Below are positions 2,804 to 61,566 of a stretch of DNA of 64,000 bases, piece by piece (the first letter of the stretch is position 1; every line of letters begins with the position of its first letter). The notes below the pieces were generated by a model. The model saw nothing but the letters and a program-made list of their open reading frames with translations, did no database searches and had not been told where the DNA came from. Position numbers and translations under genes: made by a program. Source of the stretch: Schizochytrium sp. TIO01 (taxonomy: Eukaryota; Sar; Bigyra; Thraustochytrida; Thraustochytriidae); the NCBI GenBank assembly GCA_004764695.1, contig SMSO01000014.1, forward strand, positions 2,431,148 to 2,495,147, in the 5' to 3' direction.

Positions 2804-3917
2804 ATGATGCGCATTGCGACAAGCCGTAGTTCGGGTACTTTTACTCGTACAACTGCGCGCTTCAATGCCTTTCGCAGCCTTTCTAACTCAGCTTCGAATG
2901 AGGCTCCCTTGTACCTTGATCAAGAAGCTCGAAGCAAAATTTGCAAAGAACTTGGCGTCGCAGAAGATCGTGTAGCGTTAACGATTGCGGAGATGAGGCA
3001 GTGGCGAAGCAGTAAGGCTCAATTTCGCACAACAGAGACAGAGGGAGAACTTATCAATCCTTCAGTTGGCTTTGTACCTACAATGGGAGCTTTGCATGAC
3101 GGGCCACATGAGTTTACTTGCTACATCGACGAAAAGCTGCGATTTTACTGCGGCTAGTATTTTCGTTAACCCAGCCCAGTTTGCTCCTCATGAAGACTTT
3201 GGTAAATACCCTCGCCAGCCTGCTAAGGACCTTGCTGCTCTTTTTGAGAATGGTGCTGATGTCGTATTTGTCCCCAGCCAGCAGGAAATGTACCCTGGCT
3301 CAAAGCACGGACAAACTAGCACCCAGGTGACGAAAACCCATGTAGTTCCGGACGGTGCAGATTTCGTTTCTGAAGGCGCAGCACGCCCAGGCTTCTTTCG
3401 TGGCGTTGCTACTGTTGTCACAAAGCTTCTCAACATTGTGCAGCCGACATATCTCTTTCTTGGCCAAAAGGATGGTCTACAACAGATCATTGTGCGCCGA
3501 ATGGTGCGTGATTTGAACATTCCTTGCGATGTCATTCCGTGTGATACTATGCGAGAGTCAGATGGTCTCGCCATGAGTAGCCGCAATGTGTATCTATCAG
3601 AGGAGCAACGTCTTGCCGCCCCTGTTTTGTACAAGGCACTTTGTGCTATGCGGGAGGCTTATAATGGTGGAGAGCGCAACTTTACTCTGCTCAAGCAGAA
3701 GGGTCTTGATATTCTTGACGACGAGGACCTATTTATGGTGGAGTACCTCAGTCTGTGCGACAACCTTGAAGGTACAGAGTTCTCATCGAGTGACCCTCTT
3801 CCGGAAGGGAACATTATGGCGTCATGTGCTGTGACGTTCGGAAATTGTCGCATCCTTGACAATATCCTTCTCGGTGAACAGCCTCATGTCAAGAAGGCCC
3901 CTAACTCTACTCTCTAG
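2804..3917 (+). CDS. panC: Pantothenate synthetase with one extra base breaking the frame at about 3101
   Basis: This enzyme joins pantoate and beta-alanine with ATP to make pantothenate (vitamin B5, the coenzyme A precursor). Frame one (2804-3100) holds a Ser/Arg-rich presequence-like start and ends in the nucleotidyl-transferase signature FVPTMGALHDG. The rest of the family signature (HMSLL, SIFVNPAQF, LFLGQKDGLQQ, SSRNVYLS) continues in frame +1 from 3102 to 3917. Skipping a single G in the GGG at 3101-3103 gives a protein of about 370 residues. Without the skip, translation stops at 3157, producing 117 residues that lack most of the active site. The downstream half is fully conserved and stop-free, so a sequencing or assembly indel, a very recent mutation or a +1 recoding site are all possible. 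The N-terminal extension suggests mitochondrial import (inference). Confidence 0.85.
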
Positions 3918-31455: not shown

Positions 31456-31900
31456 TACAATCTGCAAAACTTGCATTTCCTATGGTGACAGAGTGCGGGG
31501 CTAAGCCCCAATCTCGAGTTTAAAAAAAAACTAACCCATGACTCAAAAACAATTCTCAAACCACGTCTTTAAATCGGTAGAACGAAAGGGCGCCTCTGGC
31601 GGCATGGACATCACGATCGACTACAGGTTTGCATTTTTGGGGGGGCATTTGAAAACCTTGGATGTTCTGAGCTTGTCGTGGATTGTACATATCCTCTGCA
31701 TGGTTTCGAAGTATCCCCAAATGCAACCACGTAGGCGGTCGTGATATCCACGCCGGCAGAGGCATCCTTTTCCGCTGTCGATTCAAAGACGCAATTTTAG
31801 AATTGTTTTTGAGTCGCGGGTTAGTTTTTTTAAAAACTCAAATTGGGCCTTAGCCCCTCACTCTGTCACCATATGGAAAATGCAAGTTTAGCAAATTGTA
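31456..31900. mobile_element. Fanzor-element derivative: inverted duplication of the 3' end
   Basis: About 445 bases in which two arms of roughly 200 bases face each other around an 80-base spacer. Each arm begins with TGCAAAACTTGCATTT or a close variant, carries GGTGACAGAGTG, the hairpin GGGGCTAAGCCCC or a variant, and ACTCAAAAACAATTCT, and runs inward to a piece of coding sequence. Read outward on the minus strand the left arm gives DRDVHAARGAL, the RuvC-III end of a Fanzor/TnpB protein. The right arm encodes the matching piece on the plus strand. The arms differ by about 15-20% (visual estimate), so this is an old inverted duplication, not an assembly artefact. A transcript would fold into a long hairpin. 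It is related to the elements at 39.6 and 59.1 kb. Confidence 0.85.
31556..31700 (-). pseudogene. Fanzor C-terminal zinc finger/RuvC-III remnant (left arm)
   Basis: On the minus strand the fragment reads IHDKLGTSKVFK-type residues in one frame and DRDVHAARGAL in the next. The two are separated by a 5-base insertion in a C/A-rich run that is also present in the copy at 39.8 kb. Only the last 50 or so codons of the nuclease are present, with no start, RuvC-I or RuvC-II. Confidence 0.75.
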
Positions 31901-32223
31901 TTGGTTAAATTCTAAATGACAACTTCTGTCAAAAAGATAGAATATAAAGAGTATGACGAAGCAGTAGGTACTACTACTTATTAAGCACGCTTTATATTGT
32001 TATGGAGGTACTCTAGCTAGATATAGAATATTAAGTAGATATCTATCTAGAGTACTGACTACGTCGCTTTCATTACTTTCATTCAAAGTTGAAAGAGAAA
32101 CGTGAGTAAATGATTGTCTTAATTCACCGCGCAAAGAAAACCTCAAGTTGACAGACTTCCCAAGGTGACGGGCCTTAATACCAGTTCAAAAAGGCGTATC
32201 GAAGTGCCAAGGAAAGTATCAGC
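31901..32223. other. Short spacer upstream of a membrane protein gene
   Basis: AT-rich, with TAGATATCTATCTAGAG-type imperfect palindromes near 32010-32055. No gene. Confidence 0.5.
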
Positions 32224-39358: not shown

Positions 39359-39595
39359 CCTTTACCAAAAGCTTTTAAAAGCCGTGCAGCACACGTGTTG
39401 GTGTCTTTGACAGGTTAATTATATCATGCAAAGTCAATCAGGAACAACAAACGTTTCGCCCCTGTCATTGCCTGATCCTTGGCGTTCAAGTTATTTCATG
39501 ATCTTCGCAAGAAGATTATTATTTTATTCTGCTGCTTTTGCCCGGTAGCACCTAGCAATCCATAATAAATGGTGGGGCTATTTACTTAGAGATTC
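39359..39595. other. Upstream region of the WD40 gene
   Basis: Short spacer between the WD40 gene start and the mobile element edge. No feature was recognised. Confidence 0.4.
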
Positions 39596-40527
39596 ACCTA
39601 TAAAATTTGCAAAACATGCATTCCCTATGCTGACAATGGGGAGCTAAAGCCCAATCGTGGGTTAAAAACAAACCCGCAACTCAACGAAAATTCTTAAATC
39701 ATGTCTTTGGATAGATAGGAAGCACAGAAGGATGCCTCCAGCGGCGTGAATATTACGATCGGCTACGCATTTGTATTTTTGGGGGGTCATTTGCAAACCC
39801 TGGATGTTCCCAGCTTGTCGTGGATGATACCACATTCATTGCGTGGTTTGGAAGTGGCAAATAACCAGTTTACACCACTGGCAGGGAGAAGCTCGGCTTT
39901 GTAAATGAGCGTTTGTCGGAAGCGAACAAACGGCACATCATTCGAGCTGTCTTGATTTTGATCCGTCTTGTAAACCTATTGAGGTTTCGGATTTAGGCAA
40001 AACATCGTAGTTTTCACAGAGCCAAGCGCAAGCTTGCGGTGAATCTCGGTAGTTCAGCAGGGCGCGCAAGCCCAGCCTTTAATGATATTGTAGACGGCGG
40101 AGGCGTCTGGATGGGCACGCTGGAGGCCACCCATATGGTGCTTCAAGTTCGCTTTTTATTTGACGGAGGACACTCCTGGTGTAGATAATGCTCGCGCGGC
40201 TGCCGGAACAAACCGCTGTTATAGGTGTGCTCAGCGTCGTCACTTGAATATATGCGTTTGTCTCCGGGGAAGTACCCAAAGGGCTCTTGCTAAAATGCCA
40301 AACTTCTGGTTGGAGTACTTTGTTGGCTTGTATTTTAGCTTTGCTTCGCTTGTAGCGTTCGGAGCTTGGTGGTTCCTTGGCCATTCCATTTTCTTACCTA
40401 ATCTCCGCTTTAAAAACAAAACAAAACAAAACACTAAAATAAAGACCTTACTAATATAATCTATCATTCATTATATGGAATAGTTCCTGCCATTTGGAGG
40501 TTATATAAGTTTTAACGTTTCGTAGGT
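39596..40527 (-). mobile_element. Internally deleted Fanzor element
   Basis: About 930 bases. The left end (ACCTATAAAATTTGCAAAAC, then TGCATTCCCTATGCTGACA) matches the left end of the 59.1 kb element. The right end (TATGGAATAGTTCC, GGAGGTTATATAAGTTTTAACG, CGTAGG) matches that element's right end. At about 40051-40060 the sequence jumps from the RuvC-II-proximal region (GAATCTCGGTAGT) straight to the N-terminal coding region (CAGGGCGCGCAAGCCC), removing about 1.6 kb relative to the larger copy. Short GCGCGC-containing sequences lie at both deletion ends. This is a nonautonomous derivative: both ends kept, nuclease core lost. Orientation is that of the nuclease remnant (minus strand). Confidence 0.85.
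39700..40190 (-). pseudogene. Fanzor nuclease remnant (deleted copy)
   Basis: On the minus strand the remnant starts near 40190 with the same leader and N-terminal residues as the larger copy (LQRAHPDAS; the ATG has become GTG and an early stop is present). It then joins directly to TEIHRKLA, and to remnants of the KSETS (FETS equivalent) block, ECGIIHDKLGTS and, after a frameshift, CVADRNIHAAGGIL. The RuvC-I block is absent because of the deletion. It cannot encode an active nuclease. Confidence 0.78.
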
Positions 40528-58936: not shown

Positions 58937-59083
58937 GGCTGGCGCTACTAGTAAGACTGGGCAAGGCTGCTACTTGCGTGGCGGATAGCTTCTTTGCATC
59001 GCTCTCGTCACTTTCTAGGTAGGTCTTGATTTTATTTTGGCCCAATAACATCTAAATAGGGTAACTAGCACTTACAGTAATTA

Positions 59084-59175
59084 ACCTATAAAGTTTGCAA
59101 AACTTGCAATTCCTACGGTGCTAAGGCCCATTCGCAGGTAAAAAATCAAAGAGACAATACAACTTTTAAATCATG
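59084..59175 (-). ncRNA. Candidate Fanzor guide RNA (fRNA/omegaRNA-like) region, 3' end of element
   Basis: Directly after the nuclease's C-terminal codons all three elements share a noncoding tail ending in TGCAAGTTTTGCA-type sequence, which folds as TGCAA...TTGCA. Two of them have a GC hairpin (GGGGCTTAGCCCC in the 31.5 kb copy, a shorter AGCTAAAGC-like form at 39.6 kb). In TnpB and Fanzor loci the guide RNA overlaps the end of the ORF and the element's right end. Transcription is not shown, so this is a positional prediction. Confidence 0.45.
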
Positions 59176-61252
59176 TTCTTCGACAGGGAACGCAAAAGAA
59201 TGTCTCTGGTGACGCGGATATCACAATCGGTTACATGTTGGCAATTGGAGCATTTGAAAACCTTGGATGTTTCGAGCTTGTTATGAATGGTACCACATTC
59301 ATGTCTTTGAAGTTAATCCTCTCGGCAAATAACAAATTTACACCAAGAAAAAATCTTGTCTCTGTGAATGAACGCTGGACGGAAGCCAAAGGGACCTTAA
59401 CGACATGACATTCGAACTGTCTTACTTTTGATCCATCCTTTTTAATTTGTTGACCATCTGAGGTTTCAAAAGTAGGCAAAAGGATGACACGGTAGTTTTC
59501 ACAGAGTCAGAATGCAAGTTTGCGGTGAATCTCGGTAGTCTTGCTCTTGCTCTTGCGGAGCGCGCGTAGGTATGCTCGTCTTAAGGCAGTTTTGCTTTTT
59601 TTGTTTGAACCAATTTGCTCTGGATTTTGTCGGCGCGGTGACAAAGAAAGGATATTGTTGTTTTGTCTTCTTCTGTTGCTGAAAGACGATTCTGGCCAGA
59701 TTGAGGTTGACTGTAAAGATGGAGGCAACGGGCTTGACGAAGGCTTAAGAATGTTGATTTAATAGTTAACGAACTGCTGTCCTGGAGAATGAATTCCAGG
59801 ACAGATGGATTCATGTAATAATTAAGGAGGTTAAGGCATTTTTGAAAGGGGTTAGAGATAATCGATGGGGTTAGGTTAATTCAACTTCTTCAACCATCGA
59901 TTCATGTTACACCATACTTGGTTGTAGGTAATGTGTAGTCACACTTTGAACTTTTGGCTCTGGTAGCCACAAGGATCTGGCCGCCTATCTTGCTCTATTG
60001 TAATTTGCTATGCCAGTGAGGGCGTCACAAAGAGACACCAAGAACTCGAGCAATGCCTTGTCCACTAGTTCCTTCGATTGGAGAACTCAGCATTTGTGTC
60101 GCGCTTAATTGCTTGACCATCAGCGCCCTATATAATCTGGAGTGAACATACTCCTGGGTCCAAGGCAATTGTGCTATGGTGCGCACTAGTTGCATGATGC
60201 TTTTGAGTGTACGTTTTCTTTATGAAAAAAATAGAAGTAAGCATGACCATGACGGTTCAATTTCAAACGTACGGCATTGGTTACTTGGCAGGCGAACGTT
60301 TCTTTGTGGGTACGAAATGTCTTGAGAAAGAGTGTCGTTTCACACTTCATTTTGCTCCAGTCGCAACATCCAACCTCGAAAATCTGGGTTTGATCAAGAT
60401 TTGTAAGAAGAGCGAACGCCAAATTCCTTCTTGGAGACTCACTCCTCGATTTTGGCCAAACCAATATTGAGGACTTTGAAGGCATCGACGATTCATAAAT
60501 CGCACACAACTTTCGTTACTTCGAAGATCCATTCAAGCGCACCCACACTTTCTCTAAGGCTCACTGCTCTTTTTTTTCTATAGCTATCGCCGAACATTTA
60601 AGGATTGCCTTCTTTTTCTTTCTGAGGACTTGCTTCCTTTTAGGATCCTTCCTGGCGCATCCATCTGAATCAGGACCACAGCTTCGTCTTTACGTTTGGG
60701 AAAATTATATTGAAAGTCAACACCTATGTTGCAAGCTCTTCTGGTAAACCATTTCTTAACTTGAATGCGTTGATCTTTCAATGGATTGATACGAATTCTC
60801 CTAACACGAACTAAATCATACCCCTTCTTGGTCATCTTGTGTGCCTTCACGCGCGATCTCGCCCTCCTCACTGTGTCGTCGCGGTTTATTTTTGCGCTGC
60901 TCGTTTTCCGTGATGCGACGCCACGAAGACGGCGATGGTGTCAAGTTGATCTTTTGTGAAGGTGTCAGAGTCTCCACCATGCGCATCTTGGCTTTCCACT
61001 GCGACTTTGGCAGCTTTCCTTTCGAGAAGGTGCTCAAAGAGGTCCACAGAGATTCCACAGAGATTCACGCAAGTCGGCCGCGGTGCGTTATCACAACCTG
61101 GCCGCTGCCTCAGGCGTCCAGTAGGGCGCGCAAGCCCTATCTTTTGAAGTTACCCCGCTATCGATGTCTTTATTGACGTTGGAGGCGTCTGGATAGGCAC
61201 GTTGGAGATCACCAAGTTGGCATTTGAAGTTTTCGTTTTGCTTGGCGGATGA
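59130..61252 (-). pseudogene. Fanzor (TnpB-like) nuclease, frame-broken
   Basis: Read on the minus strand, the blocks are: N-terminal MSSAKQNENFKCQLGDLQRA (from 61252); KVRKIRIYP-type signature VRRIRINPLKDQRIQVKKWF (about 60758-60815); the pre-RuvC strand VRLKLNRHGHAYFYF (about 60220-60270); RuvC-I TIALDPGVCS with its Asp (60150-60170); ALRRAYLRALRKSKSKTTEIHRKLAF and LCENYRVILLP (about 59470-59600); RuvC-II PTFETS with its Glu (59459-59470); zinc finger ECGTIHNKLETSKVFKCSNC (59241-59300); and a RuvC-III DRD-like block DCDIRVTRDIL (about 59197-59226) with spacing C-x2-C-x4-D-x-D. Blocks are split over several frames with stops, so the gene is dead, yet all three catalytic acidic positions are still visible. 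A TnpB relative is firm. The eukaryotic Fanzor label follows from the host, and the zinc-finger style (IHxKLxxSKVFKC) resembles eukaryotic and giant-virus TnpB-like proteins. Confidence 0.85.
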
Positions 61253-61566
61253 CATTCTGGTGTAGATAATGAAACAGTCAGTGCTGAGTTGCGAGCAGCC
61301 GCGGAGCCACAGCCATAGATATGGGTTCCACCTCGTCACTCATGTATGCGCGATTGCCTTCGGGGAAGCATCCGAAAGGTACTTGCTAAGACACCAAACT
61401 TCTGGTTGAAGTACTTTGCTGGCTTGTATTGTATGTTTGATTCACTTGGTGGTTCCTTGGACCATGCCATTTTCTTACCTAGCCTCCAGTTCTTGAATAA
61501 TGATATCATTAGTATGGAATAGACACTTCCATATGGAGATTATTCAAGTTCTAGTGTTTGCATAGG

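Follow-up and report, generated by a model that had tools for sequence, protein, structure and literature searches.

A dead IS607-type Fanzor2 element in a thraustochytrid genome, its young siblings, and a nuclease frame that runs across tnpA

Introduction

What kind of mobile element left its remains at positions 59069-61566, on the minus strand, of the stretch of Schizochytrium sp. TIO01 DNA studied here, and do intact relatives survive in the same genome? The stretch is a 64,000-nucleotide section of contig SMSO01000014.1 (positions 2,431,148 to 2,495,147 of the forward strand; hereafter the window), and a first-pass annotation had reported from it a degenerate Fanzor transposon in a protist, with relatives that might be intact elsewhere in the genome. 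Fanzor2 proteins have been described from IS607-type elements of eukaryotes and giant viruses (ACa-1, ACa-2, ISvMimi, ISvAR158 and ISvNY2A; PMC3627910). The relic is a dead member of this already known kind of element and has siblings with open frames. With high confidence we read the interval as the remains of an IS607-type Fanzor2 transposon that is now dead and has young siblings, and we join to this reading an inferred model of how the family transposes.

Identity of the relic

The peptide blocks read in the first-pass annotation were found on the minus strand in the order it gave, and the motif LDPGV is present in the relic. When an intact element from the same genome was compared with the window by blastn, one block of 761 columns matched at 70% (E = 3e-104) and a second of 422 columns at 71% (2e-49), with two shorter collinear blocks of 98 and 47 columns in the relic; the degenerate Fanzor transposon is supported by this homology. 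Aligned to the intact copy L009, the relic is covered over its entire length, its left end falling near 61564 and its right end near 59070. The relic of tnpA is 77% identical in DNA to tnpA of L009 over 640 aligned bases, and the relic of the Fanzor gene is 64% identical over 1,222 aligned bases. The same alignment shows 22 insertions or deletions within the relic coding sequence, 18 of which shift the frame, and six stops in the aligned codons of the Fanzor frame.

Profile searches weigh against this identification. A search without any TnpB-family match had been named beforehand as the result that would speak against a Fanzor relic, and for the relic itself this is what Pfam returned: no family was reported for the four short Fanzor-relic pieces, and none of the 34 genome matches to PF07282 falls in the window. 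The miss arises because the relic is cut into short pieces; Pfam was dropped as arbiter for pieces of this size, and the DNA homology outweighs it. The TnpA-relic pieces gave weak matches below the cut-off (PF00239, 0.013; NF033518, 0.0094 and 0.071).

The relic is here classed further than before, as a Fanzor2 in an IS607-type element. About a quarter of the interval is the relic of an IS607 TnpA recombinase, which went unnamed in the earlier description. A high-copy repeat, likewise added here, splits the Fanzor relic.

Young copies in the same genome

The genome searched comprised 64.06 Mb in 37 contigs. About 20 young copies were found in it, with 15 Fanzor frames of 615-682 amino acids. 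PF07282 matched 34 places, 31 of them over the cut-off and 15 in frames of this length; NF033518 gave 44 matches (19 over the cut-off), a right-end probe 39, and a left-end/tnpA probe 51, of which 22 were long and at least 86% identical. These probe and profile counts should be read as minima. Identity among the 16 most complete aligned copies was 89-99.8%, and both genes are open in eight copies (L009, L010, L014, L016, L018, L020, L022 and L023), so that the intact relatives suspected earlier do exist. A typical copy is ∼2.2 kb long and most of it is filled by two open reading frames (ORFs).

ORF1 of L009 is an IS607 TnpA (NF033518, 1.9e-42, 144.9 bits against a cut-off of 110), with further matches to a resolvase (5.1e-20) and to the structure of ISC1926 TnpA (1.1e-18). 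ORF2 is a TnpB-family nuclease, matching PF12323 (HTH_OrfB_IS605, 2.2e-9) and PF07282 (2.9e-13) over their cut-offs, NF040570 (guided_TnpB, 8.3e-27) at 94.4 bits, slightly under the cut-off of 100, and PF01385 at 19.7 bits, below the cut-off of 30.5. Its best sequence match in the PDB was the TnpB-like protein L79 (9b0l, 2.5e-18). The RuvC-I motif LDPGVR was present in all 15 aligned copies, which had been recognised by motifs including DPGV, the same motif as was then counted. The sequence evidence bearing on an alternative position of the RuvC-II glutamate is E608 (QESYTSKTC), which is invariant in 20 aligned proteins. Basic residues resembling a nuclear localization signal (NLS) were seen by eye directly ahead of the Fanzor core.

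A Fanzor1 element travelling in a eukaryotic DNA transposon of another kind, such as Mariner, Helitron or Sola, could have left a comparable relic, and Pythium and Phytophthora, also stramenopiles, hold mostly Fanzor1 in the species table of PMC3627910, its columns being taken as Fanzor1 then Fanzor2. Against this, the partner gene is an IS607 TnpA by the NF033518 match above, the nuclease carries the LDPGVR signature together with HTH_OrfB_IS605, a scan of the L009 element reported no inverted repeats of 12 bases or longer, and the one empty site compared shows no target-site duplication (TSD). The element differs from a canonical eukaryotic DNA transposon in having an IS607-type TnpA and no terminal inverted repeat (TIR), no separate search for other transposase families having been made. 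We consider a Fanzor1 origin very improbable.

Bacterial contamination of the assembly, or a very recent transfer from bacteria, would also yield intact copies, and in the genome collection the relatives identified among bacteria come from cyanobacteria. The copies, however, are embedded in contigs 1.1-9.8 Mb long, on which there are also old relics of the family at ∼70% identity, some of them adjoining young copies. The cyanobacterial Moorena proteins are only 28-31% identical to the Fanzor, whereas its nearest relative among 113 proteins, the MMETSP transcript product P0001, is 91% identical, followed by proteins of up to 49% over most of the query; a protein of Durusdinium trenchii shows 47% identity. 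A bacterial source of this kind is the least probable of the alternatives weighed here. On two scans of viral contigs, which gave no confirmed relative, a source in giant viruses was set aside, if not with certainty.

Young copies were seen near older copies or fragments, ∼0-330 bases away and mostly in opposite orientation (L016:2398-3101, L022:7032-8421 and L029:245-3462), and directly beside the old copy L027 there is a right end in inverted orientation (L027:3137-3210). For tens of copies in 64 Mb, this clustering of young beside old looks like more than chance.

Selection and mosaicism

Among 14 copies (91 pairs), the ratio of non-synonymous to synonymous differences (pN/pS) was 0.34 in the Fanzor frame; the two remaining frames gave 0.97 and 0.90. 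In successive 300-base bins the Fanzor value fell from 0.52 through 0.40 and 0.27 to 0.09, and the last 99 bases showed almost no variation (pN 0.012, pS 0.012), perhaps owing to overlap with the guide RNA. The Fanzor frame is shaped by purifying selection. The tnpA frame gave 0.37.

One tnpA stop is common to five of the 14 copies, and L025 has a tnpA stop too; as a group, these six copies still show a constrained Fanzor frame (0.38). That copies with a tnpA stop keep Fanzor open suggests that TnpA acts in trans and that each copy retains a Fanzor of its own. Two observations weigh against this reading: the tnpA halves of the tnpA-dead copies carry 0-5 changes, too few for testing relaxed selection, and the tnpA-dead copy L025 has lost the end of Fanzor.

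A 295-base block with (TAACC)n repeats lies inside tnpA in L013, L015, L017 and L025, with the Fanzor frame open (its end cut short in L025). An intron was ruled out for this block, which has no GT...AG ends.

The copies are also mosaic. Across 137 informative sites in the 14 copies, conflict between neighbouring sites was 0.268 against 0.379 after permutation, and none of 500 permutations was as low. In the block before RuvC, copies that are elsewhere mostly 0-1% apart differ by up to 16%; this part of Fanzor (L009 element positions ∼901-1350) looks as if cassettes had been swapped. Open frames, selection and mosaicism together speak for recent movement of the family, which may still be moving.

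Ends, target site and right-end RNA

At the right end the copies have CTAAGAG (CTAGGAG in L018); the following base was A or T in 17 of 17 copies by reading. At the other end, CAG stands just outside the constant bases in 12 of 17 copies by script, or 13 with L021 added by eye, where 0.136 would be expected per 11-base flank window. The repeat into which L014 inserted has two paralogues that lack the element, and the comparison showed no loss and no duplication beyond a possible 2-base core; the test for target duplication rests on this one insertion. From these ends we infer a core AG dinucleotide and a CAG-like target-adjacent motif (TAM). The four copies in which CAG is absent beside the left end count against the motif.

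The last 150 bases of L009 fold more stably than shuffled sequence (z = -3.19, no shuffle equal). Forty-one right ends were aligned and structure was assessed on 20 rows (14 young and six old, hand-chosen, 19 distinct). In these rows, three hairpins and a CUUA/UAAG pseudoknot left 92.9% of cells paired, against 33-45% when the structure was slid along the alignment. High pairing persists in shuffled columns because few columns vary, and the weight therefore rests on double-sided changes, which were few: eight cells against 3.7 by shuffle. RNAalifold on the 41-row alignment called seven pairs only, one of them with a double-sided change. In the relic the TGCAAGTTTTGCA hairpin is retained and the first large hairpin is mostly gone.

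Several results weaken the case for a conserved structure. The shuffled columns paired at 92.1% on average, with 2 of 500 as high as observed, and the four pairs with double-sided change were matched by 69 of 500 shuffles. The pseudoknot pairs were kept in 93.4% of cells with no double change at all. The structure was drawn from the fold of L009, itself one of the aligned rows, so that the slide control favours it. Rfam gave no match at its gathering threshold and three chance-level matches below it. A pseudoknot is needed by an IS607 TnpB and is predicted in Fanzor2s, according to PMC10711439. The right-end RNA of the present family is probably the guide RNA.

A nuclease frame open across tnpA

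In L009 the Fanzor frame is open from ahead of the tnpA start through all of tnpA, and in Moorena the nuclease frame is open across tnpA from just past the tnpA start codon. Loci in which a motif search found both genes were surveyed, 23 cyanobacterial and one thraustochytrid, and in all 24 of these Fanzor-related loci (13 in a first set, 11 in a second) the nuclease frame was +1 relative to tnpA. Counted back from the tnpA stop, it stayed open over 155-234 codons, and in every locus this amounted to 89% or more of tnpA. Stops in the +1 frame over tnpA numbered none in 15 loci and one in nine; the start codon was excluded from this count, as ATGA yields a +1 stop in several loci. Synonymous shuffling expects 2.0-7.3 stops, giving P ≤ 0.05 in 22 of the 24 loci (the exceptions are L089 and L099). 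The independent cases number fewer than 24, several of the Moorena loci being close copies of one another. Outside such close groups the tnpA proteins are 30-59% identical, and synonymous sites should therefore be saturated.

A search of 292 cyanobacterial genomes, in which 19 genomes had such a protein at E 1e-40, supplied the 11 loci of the second set. Dropped from the first set were L056, L065, L066, L068, L069 and L070 (no downstream nuclease frame in the short locus), and no output was obtained for L051, L063, L071, L072, L082 and L084, of which L072 and L084 were inspected separately. Seven of the 20 second-set loci were dropped (L086, L087, L088, L091, L092, L097 and L103). L061, L062, L085 and L104 are copies of L055 and L054 and were counted once.

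Ordinary IS607 elements have a different arrangement. In 11 other elements from bacteria and archaea the tnpB frame reaches -3 to 60 codons into tnpA, in nine read by annotation (L084 included) -2 to 61 codons, and in six more loci (L105 being L064 again) at most 40 codons were open before the tnpA end in either frame. L081 has an IDPG motif without the overlap, and the motif alone is therefore no marker of the clade.

Selection on the overprinted peptide was assessed by comparing tnpA pairs with simulations in which tnpA alone is selected, under a simple mutation model and with some pairs sharing lineage. The +1 frame pN/pS lay at or below the lowest 1% of simulations in five of six pro-Fanzor pairs; for the sixth, L093/L094, 15% of simulations were as low. 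The third frame was never low in these pairs. Three informative control pairs of ordinary IS607 elements gave 84%, 18% and 91%, and a fourth had no value in that frame. A separate run on six overlapping pairs gave 0-2%. The overprinted peptide thus shows selection in five of the six cyanobacterial pairs. In the thraustochytrid family itself the result weighs the other way, the +1 overlap ratio being 0.93, a value reached by 6-23% of simulations and not significant.

An open nuclease frame over tnpA might have no function and reflect chance, shared ancestry or the composition of serine recombinases. In the Fanzor frame the overlap of the thraustochytrid family evolves almost neutrally (0.90-0.93), the pair L093/L094 was not below simulation, and the close Moorena copies, lineage-sharing pairs and simple mutation model can be set on the same side. 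Three of the 11 other IS607 elements, L073 and L076 (+2 frame) and L077 (+1), have fewer stops than expected in a tnpB frame that is nonetheless closed, and a wider effect may exist. Against a functionless frame stand its +1 register and its open length in every locus despite the divergence of tnpA, the shuffling result, and low pN/pS in the +1 frame of pro-Fanzor pairs that was seen neither in their third frame nor in the informative controls. We regard a functionless frame as unlikely.

At the protein level, 19 homologues picked among the 113, most of them long, align over the extension. A pattern count on all 113 (the start of the core was located in 55 and was preceded by 120 residues or more in 34) was too crude for use. 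On a Trichormus variabilis plasmid (NZ_CP047243; L072:2550-4283) the nuclease frame is open for 578 codons, and the annotated tnpB covers about the last 402, starting near the tnpA end; tnpA there is a shortened open frame of 151 codons from 2681. Annotations, that of this plasmid perhaps among them, may clip the nuclease N terminus.

No published account of the whole-gene overlap, or of a Fanzor in Aurantiochytrium, was found among the titles and openings of abstracts listed, supplements and most subscription papers lying outside that search, and the word 'overlap' occurs nowhere in the main texts of PMC3627910 and PMC10711439. The whole-gene overlap is the part of these results that would surprise specialists.

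Proposed mechanism and translation start

By analogy with known IS607 elements, TnpA would excise the element as a circle and insert it at short AG-type sites. As in known Fanzors, a guide made of the right-end RNA and ∼15 flanking bases would be loaded on Fanzor, which would then cut the re-sealed empty site beside the left-end CAG, the putative TAM. Repair from the sister or homologous chromosome would restore the element, which would therefore be kept and multiplied.

We propose that ribosomes pass over the AUG of tnpA by leaky scanning and begin Fanzor at a +1-frame AUG that lies within tnpA. In L009 the tnpA AUG (3370) is followed by no other AUG, whatever the frame, until that of the Fanzor frame at 3494, which would give a protein of 618 amino acids, and in all eight two-gene copies the next AUG after that of tnpA is in the Fanzor frame; a ribosome that skipped the tnpA AUG would thus start Fanzor. 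Leaky scanning is disfavoured by the good context of the tnpA AUG and by two short upstream AUG frames within the element.

Alternatively, programmed +1 frameshifting or splicing could join TnpA and Fanzor into one fusion protein, Fanzor then having no AUG of its own, and a nuclease frame that is +1 throughout the overlap would suit this. Frameshifting, however, would require an open +1 frame only downstream of the slip, and here that frame is open already within ∼22 codons of the tnpA start or earlier; moreover, the copies with a tnpA stop keep Fanzor open and constrained as a group. We regard a fusion as unlikely, and initiation at an internal AUG is retained as the proposed start.

In the ordinary IS607 elements surveyed here tnpB begins at or near the tnpA end, where scanning ribosomes would rarely reach it. 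Our tentative proposal, which we would not yet back at even odds, is that in the lineage leading from pro-Fanzors to Fanzor2 one stretch of DNA encodes both TnpA and, in the +1 frame, a nuclease extension of ∼150-200 residues, both under selection, and that the resulting AUG near the 5' end of the mRNA, reached by leaky scanning, was a pre-adaptation through which this TnpB lineage alone, among many, gave rise to the Fanzors of eukaryotes. If this is true, the overlap may place the Fanzor AUG within reach of scanning ribosomes and help to explain how the nuclease functions in eukaryotes.

Features of the window

The features are collected in Table 1. For the repeat inside the Fanzor relic (59690-60094), 40 further places at 82-85% were among the matches listed, 40 having been scored among 246 candidates. 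The intervals 39584-40410 and 31459-31918 hold further relics of the Fanzor2 family; in the latter, two right ends lie head to head, facing outward, with little between them. The main relic is flanked by a DnaJ gene on one side and an epoxide hydrolase gene on the other; among named relatives the hydrolase is nearest to one from Hondaea fermentalgiana (73%, covering 75% of the query), and an MMETSP transcript product matches it at 99%.

Table 1. Relics of the Fanzor2 family and their parts in the window
Feature	Positions	Strand	Basis
Left end and 5' non-coding part of relic	61471..61566	-	Aligns to L009 element positions 1-114, 66% over 95 columns; outer end approximate
tnpA relic, IS607-type serine recombinase	60816..61470	-	77% to L009 tnpA; weak NF033518/PF00239 pieces
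Fanzor2 relic, part outside the tnpA overlap	59166..60815	-	64% to L009; frameshifts and stops
High-copy repeat of ∼400 bases inside the Fanzor relic	59675..60095	-	Absent from L009 and L027
Right end, decayed guide-RNA-like hairpin region	59069..59165	-	Aligned with 40 other right ends; outer end approximate
Second family relic, middle deleted (left-end part and right end)	39584..40410	-	blastn E 1e-40, 1.6e-31, 1.6e-12
Third relic, right end, arm 1 of head-to-head pair	31459..31712	-	Alignment to family
Third relic, right end, arm 2 of head-to-head pair	31715..31918	+	Alignment to family

Comparison with known systems

With young, open and apparently transcribed Fanzor2 copies beside dead ancestors and empty sites, this genome offers a natural setting where it could be tested what Fanzor contributes to transposition. 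The best match among solved structures, L79, has a core that begins after ∼114 residues. L79 is a mimivirus protein, and its gene appears to lie in opposite orientation to the recombinase R80, so that the overlap may be absent there.

With the IS607-type Fanzor2 elements described in the available text of PMC3627910, the thraustochytrid family shares the pairing of TnpA with Fanzor2, no TIR found, no TSD (at one site), the helix-turn-helix (HTH) domain and a C4 zinc ribbon. It adds a new host lineage, young open copies under selection, an empty site, a right-end RNA and mosaicism, as well as the whole-gene frame overlap, which that text does not describe for its elements.

The cyanobacterial pro-Fanzor TnpBs, as presented in the portion of PMC10711439 available to us, have in common with it an LDPG-type RuvC-I and an IS607 TnpA partner. 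The +1 overlap is common to all 24 paired loci, cyanobacterial pro-Fanzors and thraustochytrid locus alike, whereas the thraustochytrid Fanzor differs from the pro-Fanzors in its NLS-like basic residues, its place on nuclear contigs and its 28-31% identity to Moorena. The spread of Fanzors implies, in the same portion of that paper, one IS607 TnpB lineage particularly suited to eukaryotes, and the whole-gene overlap is a candidate for the property that suited it.

SpuFz1 and the other tested Fanzors (PMC10432273, as far as its text was available) likewise have conserved bases at the left end (CA there), a short right-end RNA, a zinc ribbon and the RuvC residues. The SpuFz1 elements differ in carrying inverted repeats, with no IS607 TnpA mentioned in that text, and the activity of SpuFz1 is proven there, whereas the thraustochytrid family is known from sequence alone.

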